Assembly: GCA_905250025.1 (NCBI GenBank)
Contig: CAJNOJ010000384.1
Coordinates: 1 to 64,000 of the forward strand
From: Adineta ricciae
Lineage: Eukaryota; Rotifera; Eurotatoria; Adinetida; Adinetidae
DNA: 64,000 nt
Reading direction: 5' to 3'
Shown: positions 18,188 to 58,990 of the stretch, one piece after another
Layout: every line of letters starts with the position of its first letter
Position numbering within the stretch: position 1 is the first letter of the stretch
Program-made: the position numbers and the translations under genes
Notes under the pieces: model-generated
Database searches by the model: none
Seen by the model: the letters and a program-made list of their open reading frames with translations, nothing else
What the model was told of the DNA's origin: nothing

Positions 18188-19076
18188 ATGGAAATATCAA
18201 CTCATCATCGAAAGGATATATTTAGAAAATTCTTTGATTATATGAAAAATATAAATCTATTTGATGACGATGAAGATCTCAATCTAATCCATCAATTACT
18301 CGCAACTAAAATTTATCTGATTCTTTTAGTTACTTCTCTTATTATTATTGTCATTTTTACTAATTACATTTACTGTTCAAACTCAAACTGTCATCATTGA
18401 TTTTCCTACAGAATTTCTCTTCAATCTCCAAATACACCCTCACCCTCACACCCACCCTCAAGATCATCATGTTCTCTAACCAAGAATATCATTGAACAAC
18501 AAGTGGAAACATTTTTCGCTCGAATCGATTCGCTTTTGAAGAATTTTATCAACGAAACATCATCTAGCTATCAACAATTACATGATCATCAATTACAAAA
18601 TATATTCTTTACTAATTGGGATTTGCAGGTATTAACTGCGAAAGATAAATCTTTTATGTTAACAAATCCAATTCAATAGAATCAAAGCCTGATAAAATGT
18701 TTCTCTGATATGTCATGTTTAAAAAGATTATTTTCTTTTATTGGTAGTTCATATACTCCATCACCTCTGAAGTCTATCTATTAGTACGCGTTTTACACCG
18801 ATCTCATCACAGTTTTCATTGGATTTATTGAATCATGGTATGAATACAAGTAATTATCCAAATTATTTCTCAAGATGTGTTCCATTAGCATGTCAATATA
18901 CATATATGAGTCAGATGAACAATATGTACATGTTAACAATGTTTCCTGGTCTATATGGCGGATTGGCAGTCGAATTAAAATTAATTATTTGGTATAGTTT
19001 ATATTTGTATTGGAAAATACAACATTGGTTTGCTGTTCGTAGAGAATCTGTTGAACCTGTACATCGTATTACATGA
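18188..19076 (+). pseudogene. two-TM Cys-rich membrane family member, disrupted by a telomere-like tract
   Basis: Pieces of a family unit lie in order but in different frames. 18188-18400 encodes the cytoplasmic start and TM1 (IYLILLVTSLIIIVIF). 18465-18680 encodes the mid-ectodomain (IIEQQVETFFARIDSLLKNF). About 18690-18780 encodes the LIKCFSDMSCLKRLF segment. 18819-19073 encodes the C-terminal YFSRCVPLACQYTY and PGLYGGLAVELKLIIW. The part expected between TM1 and the mid-ectodomain (the CPCS and FH-CSS motifs) is missing. In its place is the telomere-like tract at 18435-18460. Several stops and frame changes make it non-functional. Confidence 0.75.
18435..18460. repeat. telomere-like tract inside a membrane-protein pseudogene
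   Basis: Twenty-six bases of CACCCT/CACACC words, the same type as at 4038-4086. It stands exactly where about 80-100 codons of the family ectodomain are missing, so it marks a breakpoint rather than a chance match. Confidence 0.7.
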
Positions 19077-20294
19077 AGAATATCTTAAAAGTGTATTGTC
19101 TTCATCTTACATTCTGAAAAAGAAGAAGTCAATAATAATTTGTTAGTGTATATTTTCTACAAGATACGTCGAATGCTACAAAAACAATCGTCGATCATTG
19201 AAAATCGTATTACGGCACTTTTGAATACATGATCATCCGCTAGTAGATCAACTCTAGTTCTTCTTATTCAGCAGAGCACTCAAAGCGTCGTGGCCAGGAT
19301 TTTTAGTATACCCGAAATAATCAGAAGTAATAAGGTAACAGAATTAGTAGTTTTCGAGCAGGCAAAAAATCGGAAATAGATGTAAACTCGCTTGAAAAGA
19401 GTTCATTTTGAGTAGTTAAATACATGTGAAAATATGCGATCGTGTATAGACGGAGATATTTCCTAATTCGCATGATTCACAATTAAAATATTCTCATTGT
19501 AAAGCGTTTTCCACCTGATTTTGAGAATTTATATAATCCAGTGCATATCCTGAACAGTTGAAAGAATTAATTCTTTTATATGCATATATATTTATGACTG
19601 CGATTAATACTCATTTATATATGATTTACAAAAGAAAATAAATGCAGAAACTTCAGATTCTATCTCAGGGTTGAATCGAGTTTTTAGTTTTCGAAAATTA
19701 ATAATTATGTAAACAAAAACATTTTCACTCGAGGGCGTTAAATGAGTCGGCACGACGATGAGCGTCTTTGTTTTTTTATGTTCTATAAACCGCTCATCGC
19801 ATCGATCTCGATTACATTGATCTTTCTAGAGTTGTTGTATCGACGGATGAAGAACACTGGCCAATTCCAGTAATGCTCTCATATTGTTAGTCTACTATGG
19901 CGGTAAGAAGCTTCAAAGCTGTTCTCAAAAACGTGTTATTAGTACTTTGACAATGGTCAATTGAAGCCCAGATTTAATTGTAAGAGAGGCCGTTTTTGAA
20001 TGTGTTCCCATCCGTCACAGCATTCAGTACAACCGGAATGTTCTCCATTCATTTTGAGCTCTCACGAAATCGAAATCTATATTGCAAACTTTGATGACGA
20101 TAGCTGCAGCAGAGCGTTTTGACTAACAGAGAGGTCATCTGGGTGAAATACGGCCAGCCGGACGGACATTTTGATCACGCAAAATACATTTTTAGATGAA
20201 ATGTTAATCATCAGGATCTTTCAACACTGTTTCTTGTCACATAAGAATACCGACACATCGACGGTGCACGTGTCGAATAATAATTGGTTGCATT
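19077..20294. other. intergenic, no gene seen
   Basis: No open frame of note and no recognised relic. It separates two pseudogenes of the same family that lie in opposite orientations. Confidence 0.4.
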
Positions 20295-20704
20295 TTACCA
20301 GGATTCAATGAAGAATTCGTCAATTATTGCGCGAACATTGAAAGGAGGTGCAATGTAGAAACTATTGTACAAAGCAGATAATGTCGTTAAGCATCTGCTA
20401 TGATAAAGGCATTCAAGTGTTGGCAATCGACGACCAAAAGCAGGCCAGAGCAGTAGAGAGACCATCGACAATACCAAATATTGCGTAGCAATGATAAAAG
20501 CTCGATTGAAACGTTATTCGTATGTATTAGATTACTCGTGTTTGCCCAATCTTCAATGAGCAACTCGGAAACAATGTTTTTCATTTTGTTGCAAATGAGG
20601 AATGATTTGATTTGGTGACAATGATTAATTATATTCACATTGACCTGTACAATAACTATTTTTACCGCAAGAGCATCTGTTATCAACGCTACTGTTTGGC
20701 ACAT
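20295..20704 (-). pseudogene. degenerate fragment of the two-TM Cys-rich membrane family
   Basis: The minus strand keeps the late ectodomain of the family in two frames. One frame (20295-20477) reads LPTLECLYHSRCLTTLSALY and then IDEFFIESW. These correspond to the STLECFYD-C and L-FIE-W motifs of the intact genes. The upstream part (to 20704) contains VSELLIEDWANTSN, a second copy of the same W motif. No complete frame exists and the TM2 part is missing. Confidence 0.6.
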
Positions 20705-20843
20705 AACGAAGTATTGAAACTGTCGTATGAGGGTTGATATCTGAATATGAAATGTATCTCTTGATATGACTTATGTATTCATAGACTATATCGCATTAAA
20801 TGCAACTAGCTCATTTCTCACTGTACCATTTGCCATTTGACAT

Positions 20844-20900
20844 CTCGAAACTTGAATTCGAGTATTCGACAAGCTCGAATAGTTGGATTCAAGTTTCGAG
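20844..20900. repeat. nested inverted repeat (hairpin)
   Basis: The 14-bp arms CTCGAAACTTGAAT (844-857) and ATTCAAGTTTCGAG (887-900) are perfect complements. Inside them is a second pair, ATTCGAG/CTCGAAT. A related sequence occurs at 37515-37535, so it may be an end or core of a small dispersed element. It lies upstream of neither flanking coding start at a regulatory distance that I can justify. Confidence 0.5.
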
Positions 20901-21096
20901 TTTGACAATACTGTAACATATAGTTATCTTCAATATTATGTCGAAAAGGAAAATGTCATCAGTACAATAATAGAAAATTTATATGTTCATTAGCTAAATA
21001 CTATTAAGCTTCATTTTATTCATAGATTTCATATTGATGAATCATTGATAATCAATTTCGAAAAAGTGTCAATAATGATACACACTAGGAAAATAA

Positions 21097-23652
21097 CTAT
21101 TCTCCTAATAAATTAAAAAAACGCATTCCCCAATAACTTATTAAAAAAGCAGTTGGATCTGATTCTACAAATCCATCACCACCATCCAAATCATAGACAT
21201 TATAACCCCATGTATCAACAGTTCGTTCGTCAGGTGGTAACATTTTTATTGAGCGAAGTGCTCTCTCCATATCACAAAAAGCAGGCACATTAATTTGAAC
21301 ATCCAATCGATCACTATTGAATTGTGGCCAGTTAATAAGTTCTAATGGCCAACGTTGCATATACCATATTCCATCTTTTGATAATGAATTACAATCGAAT
21401 TCAGGAGAAGTTCGACGAGATGTTTTGAATAAATGCTGAGTTTGATTCACCTGACCAGTGGCATAACAATAAATGAAATTATAAAATGGTGATTTATCCA
21501 TTTGTTTATACTTATGCGCTAGTTCTAATCCAATCGTCATATATTCTAATAGATTATCGACAACTGATTGTGCACGTTCCTTCTGAGCTTGAGATAAGAG
21601 AGGCGTAGAAGTAAGTTTATTAATTGCAGAAACTAAATTAAAATAGGACCAATAAGCGAGTACATCATTCCAATATTTAACTTGACATACTGCAATCATC
21701 TTTTGATTAATGATATTAACATCATAATGGTAAGTGTCAATAAGAAGTTTCGTAGCATTAAGAAAACGTTCGTCATCACTATAAACATAAGTGTGAATGA
21801 GAAAAGCCAATATTTCAAGACTACCAAGTCCTCGTTCATCTACATAACCAATATCACTATTTATATCTAACGGATTCCAAACACCTCTTTGAGTACCATT
21901 CGTACCTTCTAAATACCAATCATGAGTTAAAATATGATTAGTGATATTGAAAAGTAACGTATAAGCTCTCTGGCGTTCATCATCATTACTAGCTAAAATA
22001 TCATGTACTAATGGATGAACAAATTCATGTCCGACAGCTTCATCAGATGAAGTATCACCCTCATATTGAAGAGTTGGATAAATAGGAGATAAAAACCATC
22101 GATGTGGAGCAGGAGGAGTCTCATTACGTTTTGCAATTGAACGAGCAGGATAACCAGGAATACCTGTAACTTTATGAAGAAATTCTAATGCTTCAAAGTG
22201 AGTCCATGCAGATGTTTTGACTGCTGCATCTTGAGTTACTTTATAGCGAAAGATTTGACTACTTAAATACTTTGAAGTGCAAAGACCATCATTATCATCT
22301 GGCCCTTTGACACAAGTACGACTATCTCCCCATGATGACATACTGCAGCCCGATACCAAATTATATCTGTCATGTCTACCTGGTTGATTGAAGAAATCTT
22401 GAAAATGTTTTGCTTTTTGTGCCAATGTCCACATTTGAAAATGAAGAACGGCTAAGCCTTTACTAGTGACTGCTACAGCAGTACTGCCGAATACAGCCAA
22501 TGAAACTATATTGACCAATGAATCGCGATTAGGCATATATCGAGCACTATTAAATACACGCCAAGCATTCATGTCGCTATCATTAGGATTATAACGCATC
22601 ATTCCACGAATAGAGCCCAACCAAACTCGACTGTCAGATAATGTTGAATGGCTTACACCTAACGTAGTAATATTAGCAAATGGTAAATGACCAATATATG
22701 ATCCTGGGTTAGAAATTTGTCCTGCCAATCTAGAAAAAAACCAATGTACGCGTCCTGTCGACATGATAATTGGTGAAAGAAGAGTAATGCCAGTGTCTTG
22801 CCCTATCCATAATTTATCTTGTTCATTATTATAAACTAATGCAGTGATAGGTGCATCAATGAGTCCAGTGATTAGCTCACGGCGCCATTGTTCATCGTCA
22901 TTGGTATATGAATAAATCCAGAGTTTGGTTTCTGTACCAATGAAAGCTGTTTTATGTTGTGAACTCCAGGCTAAAGACGAAACAGATTCATTTATTTCAT
23001 TAATATAAGGATGAATAATAAATGTTGAAAGATCTAATCCATGAAATCCTGTATTCGTAGCAATATATAACCATCCTGCTGTTCCTATATCATCTATAAA
23101 CAAACCGGCTGTAATATTGGAAATATTTGATAAAACAGAAGGAAACGCGATAGTTTTTATGATGCTGCAAGAAATTGCATCTGATTGATTGCATAAAATT
23201 AACTGTATACGTTGTAAGGAGATGAGAGCAGCTGTACAAATCATAGCAGTAGTTTTATTGTGTGAAGCAACCAAGAAGCTTTTTGTGTCAATTTCAGGCA
23301 AAACTACTGAAGTTTTGTTGTCAGACAAAGACATCCAAGACATTTGTAGTGTTTGAACTGTTGAATTAGTATTTTGAGTTAATAACCAAAAACTTTCAGT
23401 TGCTTGAAAATAATATTGTGGCAATGCAATAACTTGATATACATTTTGAATATTAGTAAGTACTGGCCAAGCAGTAGATTCATTGGCAAATGGCGCGAAT
23501 AAATAACGTTTAGCTATGACCTGTTCATATTCGACATCTGGAATAGGTTCCGATAATATTCGATGAGCATTAATCAGAGATCTATGTTTTACTAAAAATA
23601 GACTATTGACTATTATTATATAGACCAAGGACCAAACGAATGTTGACCACAT
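21097..23652 (-). CDS. secreted beta-propeller / alpha-toroid protein, 851 aa, intronless
   Basis: It begins with a hydrophobic signal or anchor (residues 5-22, FVWSLVYIIIVNSLFLV). Residues about 60-420 carry propeller-like repeats: TAFIGTETKLWIYS, DKLWIGQDTGITLL, SRVWLGSIRGMMRYN and AVAVTSKGLAVLH. These resemble the sensor propeller of two-component regulators (Reg_prop). Residues about 470-851 are helical with GDTSSDEAVGHEF and motifs typical of an alpha/alpha toroid, and many N-glycosylation sites. The function is unknown; a carbohydrate-active enzyme is possible but not shown. The absence of any intron in 2.5 kb is unusual beside multi-exon neighbours and would fit retroposition or acquisition from elsewhere. 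It lies inside the membrane-family cluster but is unrelated to it. Confidence 0.7.
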   Translation of the reverse strand: MWSTFVWSLVYIIIVNSLFLVKHRSLINAHRILSEPIPDVEYEQVIAKRYLFAPFANESTAWPVLTNIQNVYQVIALPQYYFQATESFWLLTQNTNSTVQTLQMSWMSLSDNKTSVVLPEIDTKSFLVASHNKTTAMICTAALISLQRIQLILCNQSDAISCSIIKTIAFPSVLSNISNITAGLFIDDIGTAGWLYIATNTGFHGLDLSTFIIHPYINEINESVSSLAWSSQHKTAFIGTETKLWIYSYTNDDEQWRRELITGLIDAPITALVYNNEQDKLWIGQDTGITLLSPIIMSTGRVHWFFSRLAGQISNPGSYIGHLPFANITTLGVSHSTLSDSRVWLGSIRGMMRYNPNDSDMNAWRVFNSARYMPNRDSLVNIVSLAVFGSTAVAVTSKGLAVLHFQMWTLAQKAKHFQDFFNQPGRHDRYNLVSGCSMSSWGDSRTCVKGPDDNDGLCTSKYLSSQIFRYKVTQDAAVKTSAWTHFEALEFLHKVTGIPGYPARSIAKRNETPPAPHRWFLSPIYPTLQYEGDTSSDEAVGHEFVHPLVHDILASNDDERQRAYTLLFNITNHILTHDWYLEGTNGTQRGVWNPLDINSDIGYVDERGLGSLEILAFLIHTYVYSDDERFLNATKLLIDTYHYDVNIINQKMIAVCQVKYWNDVLAYWSYFNLVSAINKLTSTPLLSQAQKERAQSVVDNLLEYMTIGLELAHKYKQMDKSPFYNFIYCYATGQVNQTQHLFKTSRRTSPEFDCNSLSKDGIWYMQRWPLELINWPQFNSDRLDVQINVPAFCDMERALRSIKMLPPDERTVDTWGYNVYDLDGGDGFVESDPTAFLISYWGMRFFNLLGE

Positions 23653-26434: not shown

Positions 26435-29400
26435 TTACTTTGCGATAAATATTGAAAATATAACGAGACCTGTTATTGTTATTAGTAATAGAGTACAGAT
26501 AAAAATGATCTTAAAAGAACATTGAAATGATGAATTATCAACATTTATGGATGTTTCATTAATTGAAGAATTCTGTTGAATAGGATATTTTCTTTTCTTA
26601 CGATATTGATAAATTTTAAATAGAATCTGTACGATTGTAGGACAAATCCATTGTAGAACAATAGTTAAACCACCTTCTAGACCAAGAATAAGAGTTATTG
26701 TATAAAGTAAATTAAAATTTTGAATATATGCATATGAACATAATAATGGTGAACATTGTTCATAATATGATGAATAATTGATTTTTGTTGTCCATCGTTC
26801 AACAAAGAGATCATCAACAAATTTACTAATAGTTGTATTCATTAAAAATCGACTCGTCATGATTGGTAGTGCATTTGATGAATTAACATAGTTTGTGTAT
26901 TGTTGAAGAAGATTTAAACATGTTTGATTATAGAAACATTCAAGAGTTGAACTAAGAAGTGATTCACTTGGTGTACAACCTATTTTCAAACCTTGAATTG
27001 GAATCAATTTCAATGGATTTATTTCAATAAAATTTGCTTGAGTAGTACAATTTGAATATAATCCACAAGAACATTGTTCATCATAGATTAGAGCTTCGGT
27101 TGGTGCATACATTCCACGAGGATCATTCCAAGGTACAATATATTCAAAATTTGTTCCATACATTGATATAATTGCATTTCCATGATTGATACTACGAATT
27201 AAATAGAAAAGACGACCAAAGATATTAGATGTCATTGGTTGATTTTGTTCAATTAATGATTCGAGATGTTGACTAAAAGTTTCTTCGGATAAAAGTTCAG
27301 TTGTAACTAATAGAAAAGAAAGAACTTGTTCGATAGAATTCTTTACTGTTTGTATAGACAGATTGCATAAACCAGTTAAAAATTGCAGATGGGCAGAAAC
27401 GAAACGGCGATAATCATTTCGTGCATAAGTAGAAAAATTCGATAGAAGATTATTGGTAAGATCAATTCGCCATTGATTTGATACAAATGAACTCGAACAA
27501 ATCTGAAAAGATCGAAAAAGAATAAGAAAACATAATGTTGAAGATTCTTTACCTGATGAAATATTGGTTCAATATGAATAAAATGATTGTATGATGATGC
27601 AATCACTGAACAAGAACATTTTAAGTTATCACCATAAATACTTTTCATATGTTTATATTGATAAAAAGATGGGTGATCAAATACTTCGGTTAATGTTCTC
27701 GGTTGAATGATTGTATATAAAATAAGAATAACAAAAGAGATAATAAGTAGAATGATATATAAACGTGTAGCCAATCGACCAAGATATTGGGCAATTGTTT
27801 GATCAATATTATTATCGAAATCTCGTATAAGAAATACATTTAGATTGACAAGAGTTTTAAATAAAAACGTAATTGAATTCTTTGACTTTGTTTTCCAACG
27901 TTCGGCCCATGACTGATGTCCATTTTTTCTTTCAGATTGTTTTTTCCTACGTAATTTTGGTAAATGAAAGATAAATTTATAAAGATATGGTGTAAGCAAA
28001 TGTAATGTAGCAGCTAAGCCGCCAATCATAGACAATAATACTATCAATATTCCGATAGTAGTTTTCGAACGAACTCTTTCTGAATAAGTACAATGACTTG
28101 GTGCACATGAATGATAATATTGATCATACGATAATGATGAATTCCATTGTTCAATCATCATATTTTTTATAATGATTGAAATTGAAGTATTCGGAGGGAA
28201 ACGATGTAATGTTGGATCGTAGACCAAACTAGGAATATTACACCATAATGGATGTCTTTCACATAAACCAGGTATTTGTATTTCAGTAATATTTAATAGA
28301 TTTGAAAGACAATTTGAATTTGAATAAAAACATTGAAGCGTTGAAAGAAACAAAGATTCAGTTGTTCTACAACTCCTACGAAAATCTGGTAGTACGGATA
28401 GAATATTATATTCAGAGTCAAGTACAGAATCATATGTATTGTTATAAACAGCACTAATACTTTGACAATGTGGATTATTGGCACATACACATGTGTTCAT
28501 TGTTGAATTAACATCAACAATTTGCGGTAAACGAAATGCTATCTGAAAGAGAAAAATAAGAGTAAGTTTCATAAAAAAAAATGCACATACCTCTAACCAT
28601 TCATCACCAGTTGTTTCATTCGATGCTACAGTCACATGTAAATTCTCATCATGTATATTCCAAAAAAGTACCACTGATCCCATATAAGGTTGATCAATAT
28701 GCATGAAAAGACTTGCTATTTCAATGAGAAGATCAAAATAAGTAATTGTTGTATGATAGAATTGATGAAGAGTAGCATTCATTTGTAGATTAAAATCGAA
28801 TTCGGTCAGAACATTAGACACAACCAATGATTGTAAGAGAAAACGACTCACAGCATTTTCTCTCGTTCTATTCGCTAGTTGACAAAGATTAGATAACAAT
28901 CGTAAATATCCATGCGCTCTATGACGCCAATCTACAGGAATCCAAAGAGATGAAAATTCTTCCCACAATGAAATCCATTGAGGATCAATAAATTCACTTG
29001 AACATATTTGATGTAAAGTTGGAGATAATGAAATAAAATCTTCATAAGGAATAGTTGTGTTAATACAAGAACATCGAAGTGTCTTTGAATGTAAGACTTG
29101 TAAATTATTGTACATATCTATAGATGGATTGACTACGGATCTTGTCACGATTTCAGTACTTAATGAAGTAAAGAAAATAAGAACAAGAAATAAACCTAAG
29201 AACACATAGTTAAAATCAAAGAAGGAAAAGAAATTTGACAAAAATTATCGTACCAATGAAGAGAATTAGATAGACACATGTGATAATTCTTTGTTGTTTG
29301 ATATTCGATTTAGATCGTTTATTTTTATTTTTAAATAAATTTAATCGTAGAAGTGATTGGTTCAGCATACGCATACGTTCCACGTAAGATACTAGAAACT

Positions 29401-30983
29401 TAGATATTTATTAAATGTTCTATTATATAGTAGAATTACCTGACTCAATATTTGGATTTTTTGATTGCCATTTTAATGGAATTTTAATAAAAACTAATGC
29501 GATGACACGGCATATTAATGTAAGACTACCATAGAGACTAATAAAGAGAGTAAGTGCAAAGGAAAAATTCGTCGAATTCGTTGCTCTATATGTACAAGAT
29601 GACGGTGCACACTCTTTGAAATATTTCGAATAGTTAAGCGTTGTTGACCATTCATTAATGAAAAGATTTGTTAAAATATTGTATACAGATATATTTTGTT
29701 TTTCAGAACGTAGAACATAATTGGACCAATTGTATGACATCTATACAAAAAAACAATTTTATAACACAGATGACAATGAGAAGTATGTCGGAAAGAAAGA
29801 TATTCCATACTCGATTAAGCTCAGGAAAATAATCTGATAGTAATTCAAGACATTCGATATCATATAGACAATCTAGTGTACTTGAAAGAATGGCTTCAAC
29901 AGGCGTACATGCGCCATAGAAGCCTTTGATTAATGTTGTATTTGATTCAATTATAGACCATTCTTCATGAGATGAATAATGTGAAATATTTGAAACAGAA
30001 AAGAAATCAGCTGCACTAATTGGATTTTCTTTACCACATATAGCGCGTACTTCTAAATAGGAATCATTTTCAGTACTGGTGATCACTTTTGTTGGTTTTT
30101 GGTAAGCAGCAAAATGGTCTTTATTTACTGTCGTGTAAATAATACTGTTGGTGTTAAGAGCTGAAATTAGATAGTTTCCTTGTGTAGTCGTTTTGAGATA
30201 ATTTAAATATGAGACAATCATAATAGATGCATTATTCCTATAAAAATCTACAATGCTATTAATTCGATACTGAACTTCTGTTTCTCGAAGAAGATAAATC
30301 GTGACAAACTGATGATTATCAAATTCTAATTGATTTTGAGAAATTGTCTTTTCTGAAAGTAAACAAAAACTAGCGAGAAGTTTGAACTAAATGTGAAAAA
30401 ATAAATTGAGAAAACTCTTTCAACATCATTTTCGTTTTACTTGAGAATTGGCTGTTGTTCGAAAATCTAACGTACCATATCGACTTGCATCAGATAGATA
30501 CAATGTTCTAATCCATTCTTCACTAATGAAAATGCTCGAACAAACAGGATGAAATGTGATGAGATTGGAGACGAAAATATTATACGGAATCGCAACTTTC
30601 GAACATGGACAAGATAATGTTGTCGAATGTTTGATATAGAGCTGCTCGAAAAGATCAAGAGTAATAGGAGACGTTGTAATTGTTCGAGATTCTGGTCTCA
30701 TCAAGGCCATATAAAAAAGAATATAAAGTGATACTAAAAAGAAGGGAGTTTATATTTTGAGAGAATTATTTTCTTGTAATTATTCACTTGAAAGAAGAAA
30801 AATATAGAACCAAGTTGCATATGTTTGGTATTGAAGAATAGTTTTAGCATCCTGTAGATGGTCATTGTCATCGTCATCGTCATAATCATCTTCTTCAGGA
30901 AGGAAGAGATTATAATTACGTATATAATTTGTAATCCAACGGAGAATAGTTCTAGGTTGAATCATTGTAAAAACCCAAAGCAA
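26435..30983 (-). CDS. three-unit fusion of the two-TM Cys-rich membrane family
   Basis: Eight exons with seven short GT-AG introns (30734-30787, 30387-30440, 29741-29810, 29392-29439, 29196-29253, 28543-28590, 27503-27552) leave 4167 coding bases, a multiple of three, about 1388 aa. Three family units follow each other. Unit 1 spans 30983-29440 (CPCSKVAIPY, FHPVCSS, CTPVEAILSSTLDCLYD, CAPSSCTY). Unit 2 spans 29391 to about 27860 (CSCINTTIPY, LHQICSS, CVCANNPHC, CAPSHCTY). Unit 3 spans about 27850 to 26435 (CSCSVIASSY, GCTPSESLLSSTLECFY, CSPLLCSY, LGLEGGL). Each unit has TM1, ectodomain and TM2. Units 2 and 3 share one uninterrupted exon, so their fusion is seen directly; the unit 1-2 join depends on the 48-bp intron. 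Six membrane segments are expected. The family function is unknown. Confidence 0.75.
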
Positions 30984-31903: not shown

Positions 31904-31923
31904 CACCCTCACCCACACCCTCT
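31904..31923. repeat. telomere-like tract at the border of the duplicated block
   Basis: The bases CACCCTCACCCACACCCTCT directly precede the first base (31924) shared with the duplicate at 43157. The second copy lacks the tract at its border, so the junction differs on the two sides. Confidence 0.65.
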
Positions 31924-33600
31924 ACCTCATATATAATGCTATATATAGTACTAGAATCACCCTATCAAGCGTACATCTTATCGTAATAATTAATGTAGAT
32001 CATACAAATGCTAGAATAGTGAAACGACATGAAAGATCAAGAATAGGATGTTTATTCAAGTTCAGATTACGTAGTGCAGAAACAACTTGTACAATCTTGG
32101 TTGCCTTATGTAGAACTGTAAGAACATGTACACTTCCATCTTGAGGGTGGGCGTGGAGTTAAATTCTGTTCGCTGCTAGATATTACGATTGTTTCGTTGT
32201 TCGTATTAGACTAAATGTTTTTTCGACTTAGCAAGTGAACTTCACAATTTGATGTCATTTTACTGATTTTCTCGTAGTTCGATTCGTTAGTTTTAGTTTG
32301 TTGTTTGCAAGTATAGATTACATTATTCTTCAGCAATTCTTCCGTTGTTCTCATTGGTAATAGTGGTATCGGTAATCACTGACACATTTCTTTATGCTGT
32401 TGACAAAGAATATATTTTTCAAAACTCTACGCTAAAACTGACCACTAACCGTTGTACTTTGAAAAAGAAATTAAGCTTCTGATATTTAGTATAGCCGTAT
32501 AGACTACCATATGCTACACCCTCACACACACCAGCTATACTTCGCGTAGTTATAAGTAAGACCACAGGATAAACCTACGGAATTCTCTGAAAATGAACAA
32601 ATTTAGGAATATTCGTCTATCAACTGCACTTCAACTTCAACTTCAAGAAGTCTGGACAACAATCAGCAGTTACCGCAAAACTACCAATGGTTTCGTAGAT
32701 CAGGTGAAAACCCATCGGAGTCGTAACGAAACCATCTTGGGGTGTTGGAAATGATTGTCAAAATCTTAGAGTTTGACGAAACTACCTATTTTTAGTGTAT
32801 ATGTGTGTGTGTGTATGTTATTGCATATAGATATAGATATTTTTTAAATAAACATCTTTCACCTAACGACACGACCTAACAATGCCCGTACATACTGTTG
32901 GATAGAGAAAGTGCTTAACTACAAACCTACATAGATCTCACTTTGTAGTCGAAAAATTGTGTGTAACTCATAATCACCTTTCTGTTCATCAACTAAAATC
33001 AGACCTAGAAACAGCTTTCTCTCTGCGTCAAGAGTGTTTCGCTGTTCAGCTGTTGTTGCTCGTTCGTGATAAATTTCTGTTCATCAACTAAAATCAGACC
33101 GGGAAAAAATTTGCTTTCTTCCTCAGGGTATTTCGCTGTTCAGCTGTTATCTTTCAATAAAATAAAGAGAGAAGTAGCACATATTTGTCAGCTGCTGAGT
33201 GAAATAGAGAAAAACTGTTTCTGTTCGGCAAATCATTTGGAAAAACTTCAAATGCAAGGTGAGCAAGTTGACAGTGTTGGATGCTTTAGACGCCTCAAAC
33301 GGTTTTTTGTTGAACTAAATGTTTTTAAAAAGAACTCAATCGACGAAACAAGCATTAAAATAGAACGATGGTCTTCGCGTATATATATTGTTGTGCTGTG
33401 CTTGTCAATGTCAATTCTACTGGCTTACAACGGATTACATGTCGAACAAGTTCAGGTGGAAGTGAAGAATCCTTCTTTAGAAACATATCGGAAACTGATT
33501 ATGAAATATAGTGATAGTGTTGTCGAATGTCCATGTTCTCAGATTTCTTCTTTATATGAGTCATTCATTCAGCTGACACCCACATATCATAGTATTTGTT
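31924..33600 (+). repeat. segmental duplication, copy 1 (partner 43157-44721)
   Basis: About 1.6 kb is nearly identical to 43157-44721, differing by scattered single bases and short indels. Copy 1 has an extra tandem repeat of about 100 bp near 33060-33160 (TCTGTTCATCAACTAAAATC occurs twice, at 32989 and 33076). The block carries the upstream region and first exon part of the membrane-family gene at 33252. Two weak telomere-like words (32142-32158 and 32516-32530) lie inside it and recur in copy 2. Confidence 0.85.
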
Positions 33601-34613
33601 CAAGCAGTTTCATCTCTCAACAATGGATTGAAGCATTATTTGATGCTTTATCGACTATGCGTTATTTTTTGGATTTTCGGACAACAGGTAGTTTAGAATT
33701 TCAATCCATAAGAGAAATATGTAGCTTATCGCAGTCAACTTTCAACAGTTACATAGAAGTATTCTACAATGAAGAATTCATAGCAGGCTATCTGGTACAT
33801 GAAAATGTGTTCGAAGCGCAAATAGCAACGATTGTGGATAGCTTTCGTTTGGACACTATATCGAAATTTGCTTTTTCTTTTTCACTTTCGCAGCTGATCA
33901 TGCATTCAAATTTATTGGTTTCTTGCATTCAAGCGAACTATATATATGTATATTACACCGTAGATAAAATCAACTGGGGTGTGGCTGTAGGCGATGTTTT
34001 TGTGCCGCTAGCTAATGGCATTAAGTGCTATTGTAACTCCGCGTCAACCGATTGTCCTCAGGCACAGGGATTCTACGACTTACAATTGCCCGTTAGCGTA
34101 TTAGTGTGGCCAACGTATACACCAACACGAATTCTTGAAAATTGGTCGTCTGGCTGTTATGCTATGGATCAAATTCTTTCAACTTCTATCGAACGAACTT
34201 TCTTGAGTAATCAAACTGCACTTGACATTTTTGTCTCGTATTTCAATAACTCATCGCTGTCGAATATGAAGCGACCGATTGCTTTGAATAAATCAAATGT
34301 GATCAATCAAAATAGTACTTTCAATGAGGTTGTACAAAGTACTATGCTTCTTAAAGACTTGCGAATAGAAGTCAACTACTCACTTTATTTTGCTGACTGT
34401 CGACCCAAATCTTGTCTTTATACAATCCAGCAGCACTACAGCTTTCTCTATATGTTTACTACCCTTTTTGGCCTCTATGGTGGTTTATCAGTGGCTCTTC
34501 GGTTGATTATTCCACTTGTAGTCGGATTCTTGGTTCGACGCGTCTTTCGAAAATCACCAACTATTCCTTCTACCAGTGTGGGTAAGTACAGAAAGAAAAA
34601 CTTGATCTTCTGA
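33252..34613 (+). CDS. two-TM Cys-rich membrane family protein
   Basis: I start at the ATG at 33252 (MQGEQVDSVGCFRRLKRFF), because the other members begin with a similar short cytoplasmic stretch and the extra 62 upstream codons lie partly in a local tandem repeat absent from the duplicate. The product is about 453 aa. TM1 is RIYIVVLCLSMSILLAYNG. The ectodomain has VKNPSLETYRKL, CPCSQISSLYESF, YHSICSSSFIS, DFRTTGSLEFQ, CYCNSASTDC and CRPKSCLY. TM2 begins at FGLYGGLSVALRLIIPLVV, followed by a basic tail (RRVFRKS). A GTAAGT at the end (SVG-KYRK) may be a splice donor to a further exon. Plasma-membrane location is inferred from topology; function is unknown. Confidence 0.8.
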   Translation: MQGEQVDSVGCFRRLKRFFVELNVFKKNSIDETSIKIERWSSRIYIVVLCLSMSILLAYNGLHVEQVQVEVKNPSLETYRKLIMKYSDSVVECPCSQISSLYESFIQLTPTYHSICSSSFISQQWIEALFDALSTMRYFLDFRTTGSLEFQSIREICSLSQSTFNSYIEVFYNEEFIAGYLVHENVFEAQIATIVDSFRLDTISKFAFSFSLSQLIMHSNLLVSCIQANYIYVYYTVDKINWGVAVGDVFVPLANGIKCYCNSASTDCPQAQGFYDLQLPVSVLVWPTYTPTRILENWSSGCYAMDQILSTSIERTFLSNQTALDIFVSYFNNSSLSNMKRPIALNKSNVINQNSTFNEVVQSTMLLKDLRIEVNYSLYFADCRPKSCLYTIQQHYSFLYMFTTLFGLYGGLSVALRLIIPLVVGFLVRRVFRKSPTIPSTSVGKYRKKNLIF

Positions 34614-34783
34614 GGCTAATACTGCATTGTTGAGAAAAGCAATATAATATTATACGATTGAAAAAGGAAAAAAATTATGAGAATCTGCCAAAGTAATTGG
34701 CGATTCTAGCAGTGTAACTGTTTGAAATCGGCAGTCTGAATCTATTTAGTTAAAATCAAACGTAAACTGTAGACAAAATCCAT

Positions 34784-37700
34784 ATGATATCTAATCAGTT
34801 GAAGAGGAACTATTTTGTAGATACAGTCATGGTACGAACTAAAATGTGGAAAAAGCAGACAAGAGAAATGGCGATGCAAACCTGGATTTTATTAAATGAT
34901 CTGAATCTATTCAAGTCATCACCTCGACAGCATGGATCAGATATCAGACAACAACGCTGGATGACGCGAATTTATTTTTTAATTTTTGGCCTTTTTATCA
35001 GCATTCTTATGATTTATATGATGGCGGATGTTGAAATAAAATCAGTCGAAGTCAAATATCCTTCAATGACTACAGTAGAGCAGCTAGAATTTGAAAGTAT
35101 TAATGGATTGATTTCATCTTTACAATGTTCATGTACAAAATTCATTGTACCGTATGGTTCATTTATTCAAGTCCAGCAGCCTGTCTACCATCAAGTCTGC
35201 TCAAGCGCCCTAGTGACGCCAAGCTGGCAGAATACCCTTAGTGGCTCTTCGGCCGGTAAGAAAGTTTTCTGTTATGCAGGATAGATCGACATTATGAGTA
35301 TTTTTATCTTAAAATACTCGGAATAAGGGAGGCGCGGTGTTGATTTGCTGACTGTCGTTTCTAACTGAAAGATGCCATACTATTTCACATACAAACGACA
35401 GTCAGCGGTTTTGTCGATGTACAGTGATCGGAAATATCAGTGCAATAATGCCAGTTTTTTCAGTATTATCGCTGATACCGCACACCCTTAAATATTCCCA
35501 TAATTAGTGGTGTAAGCAAGGATGGGCTAGGTTGGGTACTGCCCATCTTTCTTGAGAACTTGCTTTTTGTCATAATAGACATAATGAAACACTACTGTTT
35601 ACATTCATTCATACGTTTTCTCAGGTATAGTTGAGTCGTATAGTCAGTTCAAGGGGAAACAAACCGATTTCTATCAATAGAAGTCAGTTTGACATCAGAG
35701 AAATCATCACAGTTCATTAGAAATTACTGGAGCTAATAATTTTTTCAATCAACAAGTAAGATATGATTTCCAGAACTATTTTCAAGATGCACATACGAAG
35801 AGTAGAAAACGAAGGTTTTGCGATCTGAAATTTCGAAAAAAACTGAAAAAGCATATAAAATCATTTAAATAAACTTTAGTCACTATGAACACTATCTAGT
35901 TTTTACTCCAAGTATTCATAAACTATAAAGAATACATGGGTCATCGCGCGTATTTGTTTCCTATTTACAATTCGAAAAATTGGAAAAATCAAGAAAAAAT
36001 CACAAAAATTCACAAAACTGCTCTTTAGGAAACATGATCTGAAAAGATGTTGAAATACTTATGAGTAGAAATTCAGACCTATAATATTTGTCCACAGCTG
36101 CGACCGGGATCGATCCGAAACAGGACCTTAAGCATATCGACACCATTCTGCGGGACATTCCCTAGCTGACAAAAATACTAAAATACAGGCTGGAGCATCA
36201 CATTTCAATTAAAAAAGCGTCACTCTGGCAAACCCCCAACACATCCAATTCTTCATACAAGTGATCGACAGACAAATAGACTGACTATCAAACTGTATCA
36301 CAACAAACAGACCAAATGAATCATGCTTCACATTTTTAATTCCACCGGAGATGACACCGAGAGCTTTTTCGCATTGTAAATACATATTATATGTTTATTC
36401 TACGAGACAAGAATATCATATGTTATATTTAAAAAAAGTGAAAAATCGTTAGGGCGGCGTCCAACCATTCATCGAATCTTGATTACACCACTACGCATAA
36501 TACTAATAGAAATCGAGGAAAGAAGTTATAGTATATATATCACTAAAAGCATCTTGAAGATAAGGTCACAAATCTACTTTTATCGTTCAATTTATTTATA
36601 ATATGTTGAGAATCTGGTAAATTTTTTCATAGAAGAAAATCTCTCACGGAAATTGAAATAGTGTTAGGCAAACTATTTGATTACTTACTTTTTTATGTTC
36701 AGTCTTATCCTTTGAAAAAACGATATATATTAAGCAAATTTAGTTCGGTTTTGTCGAATCATATGTCATCTATGGAATGAAACTTTTGTTTGACCAGATC
36801 TGATCGACAAATCAATGTATCCGTACATAGAGAAAGCATAGAACATTTTTAAAAGAAGCAGAGTGTAGATTTAGAAAGAAATATAAGTTATAATTAAACA
36901 CCAATGCACATTCTTCAAATTTCACTCTCATATATGAGATGAAAAGTGGATCCTCTTTCCATTCGTTCCCTCACTAACTCTCTATTCTTGATCTGATTAT
37001 GAACACATTGATTTATGAGTGAGTTATTGTATTCAAAACGTACGATGACGAGGAAACACTTCTCGACAAATTGCTGTATCAACAAAGTAGTCTGTGAAAG
37101 AAATTTTTTTGGCAAACTATACAATTATTTTTTTTTCTCCACAAACCAACTACAGACAGCATACACCTTATATAGTTACAGTCTAGCTTTGCATCAGTCT
37201 CCATCAAATAATTAAAATCGATAGCGTCGAATAAGAATGTAATGATGATTCAGTGTAAGACTGCGGTTATTGAATGTGAAGTCTACATGCGAGACACTTG
37301 ACATTAGTCATCGTCAAAACACTCATACATCATATACGCATTGTTTTTCTTTACCTTTTGTCTATATTATGTTCCCAAAACATCATGACAAAGAAAAATC
37401 ACGGATGAAACGCATCGACTACAGATATTTATTCCACTACTTCTAATATATAATGTTAAGCAAGAGTAAATACGGAAATCATGAAATCAATGTTCAAATT
37501 CGATTCCTGTCAGTAATATCAAACTCGAAAGTTAAATTCGAGTATGTGAAGTATCCTTACCCTCAGATACTCTCCTACACACAAATAGTCGAATAGATAC
37601 TTGAATGCAAGTTTCTTGTATTACATACATGATTCATATAAGAATTGTTCATTTTGACAATAGTTTTAGTGCAAATTCAGAATAAGTAAGGAGTTGAATT

Positions 37701-38984
37701 TGAAATTTGTTTTCACATATGTCAAAAATAACAATTCTGCCATTCAAATCTGTGACAATTAGTTGATCGGCTTTGACAGAGAGCTAAGCGATATATCAAC
37801 AATTGTGAGAAATTCATTTGATAAAATCCATATTGCAGGCACACAAATGTTTCCGAAGTACTTTACGTTATTTGTAAGTAGAATGCACAGTCTAACGTTG
37901 AAGTTTCTGATGTATATGAAAACCCCAATTTAAACTAGTTAAATCGGATCTGAGACCAAAAACTACACTAAAAAAATATATTGATTCAACTTCAAAAAAT
38001 CTATTTGATTTAGGTGGTACTTTGAAATATAAATTCGACTTTACGACTACTGCACAAATATTTTCGATATTGAGAACGCTTTGCACGTTTTCCAATAAGA
38101 CAATTTTTCAGTCACTAGCAGATTTCAAGCAAACAAAAATAGTCACTACGCAACTAATCACACGCAGTATCTTTGATGTTCAAATAAACTCTACTATCAA
38201 CGACTTTAGACTGACAACAATAAATAGTTTTTTACGATTTCTTCAAGTTCAGAGCAATATTTCTTTTATCAACCAAATTATCACTGGCCTATGGAAAAAC
38301 GTTTATATTTATGTATTGAATTCGTCTAATCCCATCCCATTTATTAGTCCCAGACAATACAACAATTCGAACTATATCTGCTCATGTGCGAATGATTCAA
38401 GCTGTCATACTGCATTGGGTGTATATAGGTTTTTTGGCCAACCAGTAACACCACTATATACTGTTCCTGGAATGTATGCATCATGCTCAATCATGACTTC
38501 GTTTTTAGTTTCAACACTGGAATGTTTTTATGATAATACTGACTGTGTGGACCAATTGGTAAAATTTTATAATAGGACTCAATTCAATATAACTCGACTT
38601 AATTCTTCTCCTAACGCTAGTCGCTTTGCAGAAAATATTACGATGGGTGACCTACTCTCTCAACTATTCATTGAGACTTGGGACACATCATCGAATTATT
38701 CATCATATTTTCATCAGTGCAAACCAGCATCGTGTACTTATAAGATTTCACGACGAAATAGTGGAATAGAAACTGTGACACGAATTACTGCTTTGATTGG
38801 TGGTTTGTCAATTTCTTTGAAGATCATTGTTGTTTTACTTGGCGCAATACTGGCTCATTCTATACGCAGACGTCAACAACAAGAGATGATAGAATCAAGT
38901 AAGAAAACGCTTGAAATAGAAGCCCATGAGTTAAAATGTGTAAAGCATTACCGACTATCTATCTATGCATCGTTCTGTCCTTAA
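34784..38984 (+). CDS. two-TM Cys-rich membrane family protein with a 2.8-kb intron
   Basis: Exon 1 (34784-35255) encodes the cytoplasmic start, TM1 (MTRIYFLIFGLFISILMIYM) and the first ectodomain motifs (KYPSMTTVEQL, CSCTKFIVPYGSF, YHQVCSSALV). Exon 2 (38014-38984) encodes the rest (YKFDFTTTAQIFSILRTLC, CSCANDSSCHTALGVY, VSTLECFYDNTDC, CKPASCTY) and TM2 (ALIGGLSISLKIIVVLLG). A GCCG-GTAAGA donor and a TTTAG-GTGG acceptor join in frame to 480 aa, and the joint falls inside the segment that is continuous in the sister gene (RYFLDFRTTGS). The 2758-bp intron is about 50 times the local norm, so an insertion is likely. If splicing fails, the two halves are pseudogenes. Confidence 0.65.
35256..38013 (+). 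other. oversized intron with inserted, non-coding sequence
   Basis: Bounded by GT and AG as above. It contains no frame that I can support. It does contain a perfect 14-bp inverted repeat (35347-35406), a tRNA-like promoter segment on the minus strand (about 36103-36170), and a sequence near 37515-37545 related to the hairpin at 20844. The content looks like one or more small non-coding elements nested in an originally short intron. Confidence 0.5.
35347..35406. repeat. perfect 14-bp inverted repeat
   Basis: GCTGACTGTCGTTT at 35347-35360 is the exact complement of AAACGACAGTCAGC at 35393-35406, with a 32-bp loop. It lies about 90 bp inside the oversized intron and may mark the end of an inserted element. 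Confidence 0.6.
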
Positions 38985-39583: not shown

Positions 39584-40834
39584 ATGGCACTGAACCTAAA
39601 GATTTTTGAGTGGTTAAAAAAATTAAATATTTTCGATGGCATGACGAACAATACAGTTGAACAACAACGTCGAGCAACGCGTCTTTATATAGTTCTTCTT
39701 ATTATTGCATTATTCATTCTTATTCTTAATAATCTGCTAGTACATTTCTTTCATACTTTCACAGTATCAAATCCATCGCTAGATCAATATCGTGAATTAG
39801 AACACCGCTATGGTATAGACGCCATTAGTTGTCCATGTACTCAATTATCCATTCCATATGCATCATTCGTCGAAACGACATTTAACTTTCATGAACTGTG
39901 CGGAAGTCAATTTGTCTCCAACATATTCATACAAAATTTATTTCAAGTGTATAATGGGTTGAATAATTCCGATCCAAAGTTAATTGTATTCACACTTGAA
40001 GGGACAGCTTTTAGCCGCTTTCAAAGTCTTGCCATATTGTGCAATATTACCGCTGATATTATACATGATGGCCGTCAACAATTTCTTTCATCATCAGTGA
40101 TCTCTGCTTATATGATTGATATTGATCTTTTTAATCAACAAACAAATGCTGCACTCGAGAAATTTCAATCCACATTACCTCAAACATATATAAATTCGCT
40201 TGAGCTTTTACGAAGTCTTACACAAGGTAATGGACTAGTGTCTCTATTTTCGACTAATTGGTATCTTCAAACTTATAATGTTTCATATGCAGCACCTATC
40301 TATTTTCATCCACAAATCTATGGAAACTGCAGTTGTGCCACGTCATCTGCATGTACTCAACCATCGGTTCCATTTATTTCTGGTTATCTTGTTGGTTGTA
40401 CTCCACTTGAGTCGCTTCTTCAAAGTACTCTTGAATGTCTCTATGATCAGTCATGTATCGATCTTCTCACTTTCTATTTGAACATGTCTTTACCTTCTCG
40501 GATTACCTCGTTACATAAAAATACAACACGTTTCTCTTCAAATGATACTATTGACTCTATCGCTCGACAATTGTTTATTGAAACTCGATCATCTAATATA
40601 TCATACGATAATTTCTTTCAAAAATGTCAACCTCTCACTTGCTATGTGATGATTATTACACCAAATAATTATCTTATTGTTATCACTACAATATTGGGTC
40701 TTTATGGAGGCTTAACTACATTTTTAAAACTTGTTGTTCCTTGGTCGATATTAACTATTGAAAAACTCAAGAGAAAACTCAGTCAAAACAAACAAGTCAG
40801 AGCACAACCAACCACGAATATGATGGATAGTTGA
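39584..40834 (+). CDS. two-TM Cys-rich membrane family protein
   Basis: The start at 39584 (MALNLKIFEWLKKLNIFDG) matches the cytoplasmic starts of the other members better than the longer frame from 39521. The intronless product is 416 aa. TM1 is LYIVLLIIALFILILNNLL. The ectodomain shows VSNPSLDQYREL, CPCTQLSIPYASF, FHELCGSQFVS, CSCATSSACTQP, GCTPLESLLQSTLECLYDQS and CQPLTCYV. TM2 begins at ILGLYGGLTTFLKLVVPW, followed by a basic tail. All twelve cysteines conserved in the cluster are present. This is the cleanest single-unit member and the best reference for the family. Confidence 0.85.
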   Translation: MALNLKIFEWLKKLNIFDGMTNNTVEQQRRATRLYIVLLIIALFILILNNLLVHFFHTFTVSNPSLDQYRELEHRYGIDAISCPCTQLSIPYASFVETTFNFHELCGSQFVSNIFIQNLFQVYNGLNNSDPKLIVFTLEGTAFSRFQSLAILCNITADIIHDGRQQFLSSSVISAYMIDIDLFNQQTNAALEKFQSTLPQTYINSLELLRSLTQGNGLVSLFSTNWYLQTYNVSYAAPIYFHPQIYGNCSCATSSACTQPSVPFISGYLVGCTPLESLLQSTLECLYDQSCIDLLTFYLNMSLPSRITSLHKNTTRFSSNDTIDSIARQLFIETRSSNISYDNFFQKCQPLTCYVMIITPNNYLIVITTILGLYGGLTTFLKLVVPWSILTIEKLKRKLSQNKQVRAQPTTNMMDS

Positions 40835-41436: not shown

Positions 41437-41534
41437 TCATGTGACATCTTTTGGTGTATTTCGTTTTGTTTAAGAAGACGCATTCGATTGTAGAAAACAC
41501 AGGAAAGGAATTTTTCGCAACAGCCATACACTGA

Positions 41535-42664
41535 AAACTCCACCACGGAGGAGCGTTTGACAGAAGGGATGCAGATACCACCATCAGTAAAACAAAAGAC
41601 GAAAGAAACCAACCATGAACGATGATCATAGGAATCCATACCGGCTCGGGCGTCGCCCAGGAAAACACGCATAGACTGAGGCTAGCAAAGAAACTCCTGA
41701 CAGTGGGAACATGGAATGTGCAGACTCTGTGGGCTGCGGACAAGCTAGAGCCGCTTCGAAACGAAGTGAAACGTTTCAGATACGACATCATTGATATATC
41801 CGAAGTCCGCTGGACAGGAAAAGGCGAAACGCCAAGCACAACAGTGTCGCAGAGTTGATGTAAGCCGATTGACGGACGAGAAAACGAGGCAATCCTACAA
41901 TGCTACAGTAGCCAAACACATGGAAAGCATAGGTCCCACAGACGATCTGGAAGAGCATTTCGCGAGGATCTCAGAAGCGCAGTCGAGTCAAGCGTACAGA
42001 GACTCTTGTACGAGAGTCAAGAAAGCGGCAAGACAGGATAAAGAGCATTGGATCCACGAACAATGCGAGCAAGCTCGCTGAAAAAGAATAAAAGTCCAGG
42101 GTTGGACGGAATCACTGCAGAGATGCTATAAGCTGGAGGGGAACAGCTGGCGAGAAGGTACCATCCCAGAAGAGTGGGGCAAGTCTCTTCTAGTACCGAT
42201 ACCAAAGAAAGGAGATCTAAGTAACTGCTCGAGCTACCGAACGATTTCTCTTATCAATCATACGGGAAAGGTACTTTTGACAGTGCTACTAAGCAGACAA
42301 AAGGTCACCTCGATCCGTACCTATCGGAAGAACAAGCTGGCTTCCGACAGGACAGAAGTACTATACATCAGATCTTGACATTGCGGCTCATAGCCGAAAA
42401 GGCTGAACGACATTGGAAAAAAGTATACAACTGTTTCATTGACTTTCAAAAAGCATTCGATACGATCAAGCATAACATCATCTGGGGTACGTTGAAGTCC
42501 TACGGGGTGGGAACGAGATAAGGCGATCCGCTGTCACCACTCCTCTTCATCGCATACCTCGATCGAGTCATGGATCAGGTGAGACAGAACAACTGCGGAG
42601 TCCGAATCGGTGGAATGACGATATTGATCTCATGGAGAAGGACCTCGACTTACTCAAGTCAAAT
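41535..42664 (+). mobile_element. non-LTR retrotransposon, copy A, heavily deleted, cut by a gap
   Basis: It begins with AAACTCCACCACGGAG, the same first bases as copy B (49838). It then follows copy B through endonuclease (TVGTWNVQTLWAADK, SEVRWTGKGE) and reverse transcriptase remnants (SEEQAGFRQDRS, FIDFQKAFDTIKHN, GDPLSP). At least six internal segments present in B are missing. Each loss is bounded by a 3-8 bp direct repeat. It runs into the 100-N gap at 42665, so the 3' end is unknown. No complete frame remains. Confidence 0.8.
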
Positions 42665-42764
42665 NNNNNNNNNNNNNNNNNNNNNNNNNNNNNNNNNNNN
42701 NNNNNNNNNNNNNNNNNNNNNNNNNNNNNNNNNNNNNNNNNNNNNNNNNNNNNNNNNNNNNNNN
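42665..42764. other. scaffold gap of 100 N
   Basis: Exactly 100 N, the usual placeholder for a gap of unknown size. It truncates retrotransposon copy A, and the sequence after it starts with CACCCT. Confidence 0.95.
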
Positions 42765-43156
42765 CACCCTAGATATTTTGATGATCAGAGATTTTCTTCC
42801 TCTTGTTGTTTTTGCTCTTTTTAATTCAAATAAACGAGAAGAATCGTCACGAAAGACAGTTACTGATGAGTTACTATCGATGGATTTGATTCGAAAACAT
42901 CTTCATTTTCAGCTGTTGTTTGTGAAGATACCGGACAGATAGGGTTCTTTCGGTTTTTTTTCGAATACACATCTAGATGAGAGATCAATCGAATTATTTT
43001 CGGACAGATTCATTGAAAAACAATGCTTAAACCATGTTGTACACTAAGAAAATAGGTGATCAATTAAAATAAATTCAATCTCTTAATATCGAGGAGTGAT
43101 CAACCGTACTAATGTCCCGATATTCATCAGAAAAATATGATTTTTCTACCAACTCC
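42765..43156. other. unassigned sequence between gap and duplicated block
   Basis: No gene or repeat recognised. It does not match the sequence upstream of copy 1 of the duplicated block, so the duplication border is at 43157. Confidence 0.45.
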
Positions 43157-44721
43157 ACCTCATATATAATGCTATATATAGTACTAGAATCACCCTATCA
43201 AGCGTACATCGTATCGTAATAATTAATGTAGATCATACAAATGCTAGAATAGTGAAACGACATGAAAGATCAAGAATAGGATGTTTATTTAAGTTCAGAT
43301 TACGTAGTGCAGAAACAACTTGTACAATCTTGGTTGCCTTACGTAGAACTGTAAGAACATGTACACTTCCATCTTGAGGGTGGGTGTAGAGTTAAATTCT
43401 GTTCACAGCTAGATATTACGATTGTTTCATTGTTCGTATTAGACTAAATGTTTTCTCAACTTAGCAAGTGAACTTCACAATTTGATGGCATTTTACTGAT
43501 TTTCTCGTAGTTCGATTCGTTAGTTTTAGTTTGTTGTTTGCAAGTATAGATTACACTATTCTTCAGCAATTCTTCCGTTGTTCTCATCCGTAATAGTGGT
43601 ATCGGTAATCACTGACAAATTTCTTTATGCTGTTGACGAAGAATATATTTTTCAAAACTCTACGCTAAAACTGACCACTAACCGTCGTGCTTCGAAAAAG
43701 AAATTTAAGCTTCTGATATTTAGTATAGCCGTATATACTACCATACGCTACACCCTCACACACACCAGCTATACTTAGCGTAGTTATAAGTGAGACCACA
43801 GGATAAACCTACGGAATTCTCTGAAAATGAACAAATTTAGGAATATTCGCCTATCAACTGCACTTCAACTTCAAAAAGTCTGGACAACAATCAGCAGTTA
43901 CTGCAAAACTACCAATGGTTTCGTAGATCAGGTGAAAACCCATCGGAGTGGTTACGAAACCATCTTGGGGTGTTGGAAATGATTGTCAAAACCTTAGAGT
44001 TTGACGAAACTACCTATTTTTTAGTGTATGTGTGTGTGTATGTTATTGCATATAGATATAGATATTTTTTAAATAAACATCTTTCACCTAACGGCACGAC
44101 CTAACAATACCCGTATATACTCTTGGATAGAGAAAGTGCTTAACTACAAACCTACATAGATCTCACTTTATAGTCGAAAAATTGTGTGTAACTCATAATC
44201 GCCTTTCTGTTCATCAACTAAAATCAGACCTAGAAACAGCTTTCTCTCTACGTCAAGAGTGTTTCGCTGTTCAGCTGTTATCTTTCAATAAAATAAAGAG
44301 ATAAGTAGCACATATTTGCCAGCTGCTAAGTGAAATAGAGAAAAACTGTTTCTGTTCGGCAAATCATTTGGAAAAACTTCAAATGCAAGGTGAGCAAGTT
44401 GACAGTGTTGGATGCTTTAGACGCCTCAAACGGTTGTTTGTTGAACTAAATGTTTTTAAAAAGAACTCAATCGACGAAACAAGCATTAAAATTGAACGAT
44501 GGTCTTCGCGTATATATATTGTTGTGCTGTGCTTGTCAATGTCAATTCTACTGGTTTACAACGGATTACATGTCGAACAAGTCCAGGTGGAAGTGAAGAA
44601 TCCTTCTTTAGAAACATATCGGAAACTGATTATGAAATATAGTGATAGTGTTGTCGAATGTCCATGTTCTCAGATTTCTTCTTTATATGAGTCATTCATT
44701 CAGCTGACACCCACATATCAT
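43157..44721 (+). repeat. segmental duplication, copy 2 (partner 31924-33600)
   Basis: Nearly identical to copy 1 over its whole length but without the extra tandem repeat of about 100 bp. It ends abruptly at a single N (44722) inside the ectodomain of the membrane-family gene. Continuous homology and sudden loss at an N suggest either a recent real duplication trimmed by the assembler, or an allelic contig placed at the wrong position. Confidence 0.85.
44383..44721 (+). pseudogene. truncated duplicate of the membrane-family gene at 33252
   Basis: It encodes the first 113 residues of the family protein (cytoplasmic part, TM1, CPCSQISSLYESF, LTPTYH) with only a few changes from the gene at 33252. 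It then stops at the N at 44722. The frame is intact as far as it goes, so the truncation is structural. It may be a real gene broken by the assembly. Confidence 0.7.
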
Positions 44722-44722
44722 N

Positions 44723-58853: not shown

Positions 58854-58990
58854 GGTGATAGTGCGAACGATGATGATGAGATACAGTATATGAAGATAGT
58901 GGAGATATTAGAACGAAGTATAATATAGAGACAGCGTCATGTATTCAACCAGCAAATTTCAATGATACAATCGTTATAGATAATAATAAA

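Follow-up and report, generated by a model that had tools for sequence, protein, structure and literature searches.

Hundreds of two-helix, cysteine-rich proteins, many of them in ordered threes, suggest an undescribed class of three-part surface receptors or channels in the rotifer Adineta ricciae

What are the similar membrane-protein units that recur on both strands of one stretch of the Adineta ricciae genome, and why do they lie as they do? The stretch (the window hereafter; 64,000 nucleotides, C384:1-64000) comes from a 130.46-Mb assembly of 1033 contigs. An earlier note, made from the sequence alone, had named nine units of one unassigned architecture with two transmembrane (TM) helices and many cysteines, and had taken their copying, inversion, fusion and decay to point to fast birth-and-death evolution, as for receptors or channels facing variable ligands. 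Using the protein encoded at 39584 as the sole query, we recovered parts of all the named units but one, eight in total, each at E 3.1e-6 or better. We then placed the units with a profile of 57 family members (profile A1), four rows of which come from the window.

18221..19016, plus strand: U1, a decayed unit seen as N- and C-terminal pieces (profile; 18221-18379 at i-E 4.2e-8, 18840-19016 at i-E 4.5e-15)
~20223..20770, minus strand: U2, a possible decayed unit, marginal (best piece i-E 0.0019, others 0.07 to 0.71)
29423..30965, minus strand: U3, position 1 of the minus-strand triplet, 454 aa (spliced model, profile E 2.6e-86)
26435..29374, minus strand: U4+U5, positions 2 and 3 of that triplet, fused, 927 aa (spliced model, i-E 3.5e-86 and 4.3e-125)
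33252..34613, plus strand: U6, position 1 of the plus-strand triplet, single exon (open frame, profile, tree)
34766..35284, plus strand: U7, position 2, N-terminal open frame (open frame, profile)
37920..38984, plus strand: U7, position 2, C-terminal open frame, lying ~2.7 kb downstream of the N-terminal frame (open frame, profile)
39584..40834, plus strand: U8, position 3, single exon, the modelled protein (open frame, profile, AlphaFold2, tree)
31920..33590, plus strand: segment duplicated at 43153-44721 (blastn, 95.8% over 1137 nt and 96.3% over 518 nt)
44383..44721, plus strand: U9, a copy of the N-terminus of U6 that ends at a single N at 44722 (protein search, profile, blastn)

The window thus holds two triplets, 33252/34784/39584 on the plus strand and, on the minus strand, 30965 followed by a fused pair. 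The 57-row profile spans 30965-29423 (minus), 29374-26435 (minus, two units), 33282-34562 (plus), 34874-35254 with 37971-38891 for U7 (plus), 39596-40798 (plus) and 44413-44721 (plus). In the spliced models drawn from the sequence, U3 has exons at 30965-30788, 30733-30441, 30386-29811 and 29740-29423, and U4+U5 at 29374-29254, 29195-28591, 28542-27553 and 27502-26435; the GT-AG introns measure 54, 54 and 70 nt in U3 and 58, 48 and 50 nt in the fused gene. On these models U3, U4 and U5 read as not obviously broken, giving one 454-aa protein and one two-unit 927-aa protein. The ~2.7-kb split of U7 may be a long intron or an insertion; we leave this undecided. The list of the earlier note holds for eight units, including the decayed one it began at 18188, while its unit at 20295 is marginal and was missed by the search with the 39584 protein alone. 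U9, which it called truncated at 44383, stops exactly at the single N, at the end of the duplicate of 31920-33590, so that the truncation may be an effect of the assembly. A Helitron-like protein lies elsewhere in the window, at 58880-61237.

Aligning the 57 members, we find that the motifs coincide between the copies and that two TM helices around a Cys-rich ectodomain recur, as had been proposed from the letters. All twelve ectodomain cysteines are kept in 50 of the 57 rows; two of the other seven are partial window rows, and U6 is without the C285/C291 pair. Columns that are invariant or nearly so include C83, C85, H103, C106, C153, C249, C251, C257, C272, C285, C291, C348, P350, C353 and G376, the last being present in 56 of 57 rows. 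The ectodomain varies most at residues 126-137 and 216-248, and the five proteins counted carry 7-11 glycosylation motifs each. The segment before TM1 (columns 1-33) reads LNxF. A C-x-P-x-x-C-x-Y motif and a strand precede TM2, which is polar and Gly-rich, has a Gly-Gly step, and carries Lys or Arg at position 382 in 47 of 57 rows. Arg/Lys-rich flanks mark the predicted cytoplasmic side of both TM helices. We predict two-TM membrane subunits with both termini inside the cell and a disulphide-rich extracellular domain.

The absence of a named family, claimed at the outset, is supported by Pfam and PDB searches. None of five window proteins reached a Pfam cut-off. For the 57 members, none was above cut-off among the matches listed (25 of 37 families; best E 0.0054); each listed family matched one or two members, and the remaining 12 sort after E 0.17 with one member each. 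Sequence searches of the PDB with the family returned nothing significant. An AlphaFold2 monomer of U8 (mean pLDDT 91.1, pTM 0.75) places TM1 at 23-52 with a strand directly after it, a long helical pair at 138-169 and 180-215 together with strands, and TM2 at 363-406 with two strands shortly before it. The isolated ectodomain was modelled at pLDDT 92.7 and pTM 0.86. Foldseek found no match at E<=0.001 in the PDB for either model, nor in BFVD for the full model. Neither model had a usable match to any solved structure from which a palm-finger-thumb ectodomain could be judged. Such a lack of matches in the PDB and BFVD does not prove a new fold.

The family reaches far beyond the window. The union of six protein searches, in which the best 93-150 candidates per query were scored, gives at least 360 family places on 140 contigs, alleles and split genes included. 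Full-length family queries drew 1380, 1328, 1347 and 1309 candidates genome-wide, and an unrelated 376-aa window protein only 3, so the abundance lies above chance. C-terminal queries of 93 and 94 aa drew 883 and 873 candidates, and the best 150 of each were all at E 4.8e-11 or better. The figure of 360 overstates the number of genes, since a split gene may count twice and the near-identical pairs (C345/C747, C758/C290, C336 twice, C350 twice) are probably alleles or recent copies; it understates the family, since only the best candidates of each search were scored. Neighbouring places within 10 kb lie on the same strand in 178 of 185 pairs, some of which are two pieces of one unit.

How are these units arranged? 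Combining the window with loci fetched by two of its proteins (positions 1 and 3, hence not a random sample), we sorted 104 units into 43 groups: 4 single units, 19 groups of two, many of them cut off where the fetched DNA ended, 18 of three and 2 of four. In a tree, the 96 longer units group by their position in the triplet. The kinship test covered 19 groups, namely all 18 threes plus C747, which entered with its first three units (the fourth is a fragment), with C269 (four units) left aside and with C225, C238 and C804 having two units each in the tree. In 16 heterotypic same-strand triplets, each of the 45 units has a closer relative at another locus than among its own neighbours, and the nearest outside relative holds the same position for 44 of the 45, where chance would give about one third. 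The result was the same once relatives closer than 0.25 were dropped, and the sole exception is U3 of the window. These 16 triplets are not independent, as they include three near-identical pairs (C336 twice, C350 twice and C345/C747). Order and number are kept even between triplets at tree distances above 1. A second class, the local arrays C483, C675 and C237 (nine units), consists of units whose closest relatives are their own neighbours. Within the window, the units of the two triplets are farther from each other than from units elsewhere, and for five of the six the nearest relative is a same-position unit; the closest partner of the plus-strand triplet is C431 at each of the three positions, followed by C654, C8 and C350. 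In the loci examined, units often form ordered threes of adjacent genes on one strand, many of them nearly touching, and in most such threes each position is an old subfamily distinct from the other two.

Neighbouring frames are separated by 24-599 nt (median 110, n=17; at most 400 in 15), and in several triplets they are joined outright. Positions 2 and 3 are fused at C430, C350 (twice), C225, C238, C758, C141 and, as a spliced model, in the window; positions 1 and 2 at C804; and all three at C345 (1279 aa) and C747 (1287 aa). The longest open frame among the matches listed, 1325 aa, has room for three units, and frames of 1235-1325 aa occur on C422, C559 and C447, judged by frame length and not by unit content; frames interrupted by introns would escape such listings. 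Clustering the at least 360 places at 2.5 kb yielded 118 ones, 62 twos, 34 threes and 4 fours. The share of clusters with a single detected place (118 of 218) is due in part to the scoring of only the best 93-150 candidates per search. Places also differ from units: C180 has three places and two units, and C407 is without its middle unit. Of the fours, three (C350 twice and C8) are triplets in which one unit is split, and the remaining one is C269. From a random list of 12 clusters on contigs outside this set we took four, each previously known from two places, and three of them proved to be exact triplets with no further unit within 1.6-3.0 kb on either side. The fourth, C858, has two units in its stretch, one without its middle.

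Estimating selection in 35 pairs, 33 of them usable, we obtained dN/dS values of 0.10-0.87 with a median of 0.38, the highest in the array group C675/C1028. We also looked at trans-splicing, using the Rotifera spliced-leader exon tabulated in PMC3795323. The genome has 44 places that match this exon with 1-2 mismatches, each followed by GTA, and none for the reversed pattern used as a control. The exact 23-mer occurs nowhere in the genome. We take the 44 places with a donor, against a control of zero, as the mark of a rotifer with trans-splicing. Acceptor-like sites stand before 11 of 17 downstream ATGs, compared with 7.0 in shuffles; 27 of 500 shuffles reached as high, which is a weak enrichment.

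Three old paralogues that lie side by side in a fixed order, evolve under purifying selection and are joined into chains at several loci have the look of obligate partners. Hundreds of copies, many of them in ordered threes, suggest a large undescribed class of three-part surface receptors or channels. From these data we infer, with a probability of roughly 45%, that the units are expressed together as subunits of a (hetero)trimeric surface receptor, perhaps a ligand-gated channel, belonging to a chemosensory or recognition repertoire. The three products of a triplet would assemble with one another, most likely into a (hetero)trimer that has six TM helices in all, and would be co-expressed through a single transcript resolved by spliced-leader trans-splicing or through outright fusion. 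TM2 might line a pore or couple the three chains, and its Gly-Gly step and its Lys/Arg in 47 of 57 rows fit either a pore or a packing role. The variable ectodomain could bind diverse external ligands in the service of chemosensation or recognition, and the local arrays may represent a branch that is homomeric or has expanded recently. The trimer, the pore, the ligand and the operon are each inferred. The most specific version, an A:B:C heterotrimeric ligand-gated class with an unseen ectodomain fold, encoded in three-gene operons resolved by spliced leaders and supplying hundreds of units to a rotifer sensory or recognition repertoire, is tentative and, taken as a whole, doubtful. If the proposal is right, a very large animal gene family has so far gone without a name or a recognised fold, and its ordered, partly fused triplets would make it possible to predict, from sequence alone, how many subunits there are and which are partners. 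A further interest would lie in how a small animal with few neurons assembles its repertoire for sensing or recognition.

The main rival for the triplet layout is plain block duplication, in which blocks of ~4-5 kb are copied whole and the triplets are a by-product with no joint function. Such copying alone yields same-position relatives, so the order of the triplets is not proof of a complex, and near-identical blocks do exist, as in the three pairs above. Against it stand the order and number kept between very distant triplets, the fusions inside triplets, with an open frame roomy enough for three units, and dN/dS below 1; we consider it rather unlikely as the whole explanation. Adhesion or self/non-self recognition proteins, with the same topology and triplets in a recognition complex that has no pore, are a possible reading, although we would not favor it. 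The glycosylation motifs, the two variable ectodomain stretches, the hundreds of copies and the dN/dS of the C675/C1028 group would all suit it. However, TM1 and TM2 are equally conserved (mean entropy 1.95 for each), TM2 is the more polar of the two, and a plain anchor needs neither the Gly-Gly step nor the Lys/Arg.

Heterotrimers of related subunits are known among DEG/ENaC/ASIC channels (PF00858), which share with the predicted rotifer proteins two TM helices, both ends inside, a Cys-rich ectodomain and a Gly-rich TM2. P2X receptors (PF00864) are trimers with two TM helices and a large disulphide-rich ectodomain. A very divergent branch of DEG/ENaC (or P2X), retaining trimer and topology while its sequence became unrecognizable, would explain the gross layout from TM1 and its strand through the Cys-rich helices and strands to C-x-P-x-x-C-x-Y, a strand and TM2. 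Yet neither PF00858 nor PF00864 appears among the matches listed for the 57 members (25 of 37 Pfam families), and PF00858 is absent from the five window proteins. The genome has DEG/ENaC genes of its own, with 90 ASC stretches, none of which overlaps the 227 family places then known; hhalign of profile A1 against three ENaC proteins of the same genome gave a probability of 0.2%. The HG motif before TM1, expected of DEG/ENaC, is seen in those three proteins and is missing from columns 1-33 of all 57 rows. The genomic triplets and in-frame fusions also set the rotifer family apart from DEG/ENaC/ASIC, as the two long ectodomain helices of the model do from P2X. Such a branch is improbable, and two-TM subunits in threes may recall ENaC, ASIC and P2X in working principle and not in descent. 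Envelope-like genes of mobile elements or viruses might account for the high copy number, and the window does contain a Helitron-like protein. We regard this origin as very improbable in view of the introns in the spliced models of some copies, the same-strand layout, dN/dS below 1, the lack of a BFVD fold match at E<=0.001, and the lack of a relative in IMG/VR and GTDB contigs, searched with patterns from one protein.

The receptor or channel role proposed in the earlier note is plausible as a hypothesis. Insect chemoreceptor arrays are similar in their many tandem genes, decay and diversifying receptors; unlike the rotifer proteins they are seven-TM proteins, and they are not known to form ordered triplets. 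Large family expansions are on record for the rotifer Adineta vaga, and defence, chemosensation and cell-cell communication have been proposed as their roles (PMC3846280), but none of the families named in the accessible part of that paper is two-TM and Cys-rich. Neither transmembrane nor receptor is a word used in the accessible part of the main text of PMC5916493. Local duplication, decay and fusion are borne out in the window. Fast local birth-and-death as the main source of the window copies is not, as the nearest kin of the triplet units lie elsewhere and dN/dS never exceeds 1; it does fit the local arrays C483, C675 and C237.

The window also carries features of a mobile-element character, a repeat pair and, near the cluster of Cys-rich two-TM genes, two other genes:

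11980-12786, minus strand: DUF4246 protein (E 1.1e-9), near the cluster
14012-14980, minus strand: rhodopsin-type receptor, weak match (E 6e-8), likewise close to the cluster
41660-42657 and 50107-51822: one element present twice (nucleotide comparison), probably reverse-transcriptase-like
53664-54144 and 55004-55485: two inverted copies of a repeat, 95.4% identical across 483 nt
57939-58850, plus strand: DUF6570 frame, adjoining the Helitron_like_N protein
58880-61237, plus strand: Helitron_like_N protein (E 2.2e-33)

From our reading of their translation, the elements at 41660-42657 and 50107-51822 are likely reverse-transcriptase-like. Pieces of the two copies are 94-97% identical, and a 100-N gap (42665-42764) lies directly past the end of the first.

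Performing the PF00858 (DEG/ENaC) search on the A. ricciae assembly, we found 90 matching stretches; ordinary DEG/ENaC genes are also present in this rotifer in sizeable number. Thermotoga maritima, one of the control genomes, also came above the PF00858 cut-off, which we judged odd.

A separate branch of the Cys-rich family occupies local arrays on contigs C543, C220, C630, C237, C675, C1028, C269, C553, C483 and C114 of the same assembly. The nearest kin in this branch are mostly neighbours, and several of the arrays likewise comprise three units.

The assembly also holds 44 spliced-leader-like sites with a donor (for example C6:235172-251415, C8:239422-343231, C77 and C99), many of them arranged as inverted pairs about 156 nt apart. 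Their first base is T, whereas the rotifer leader in the table of PMC3795323 begins with G.
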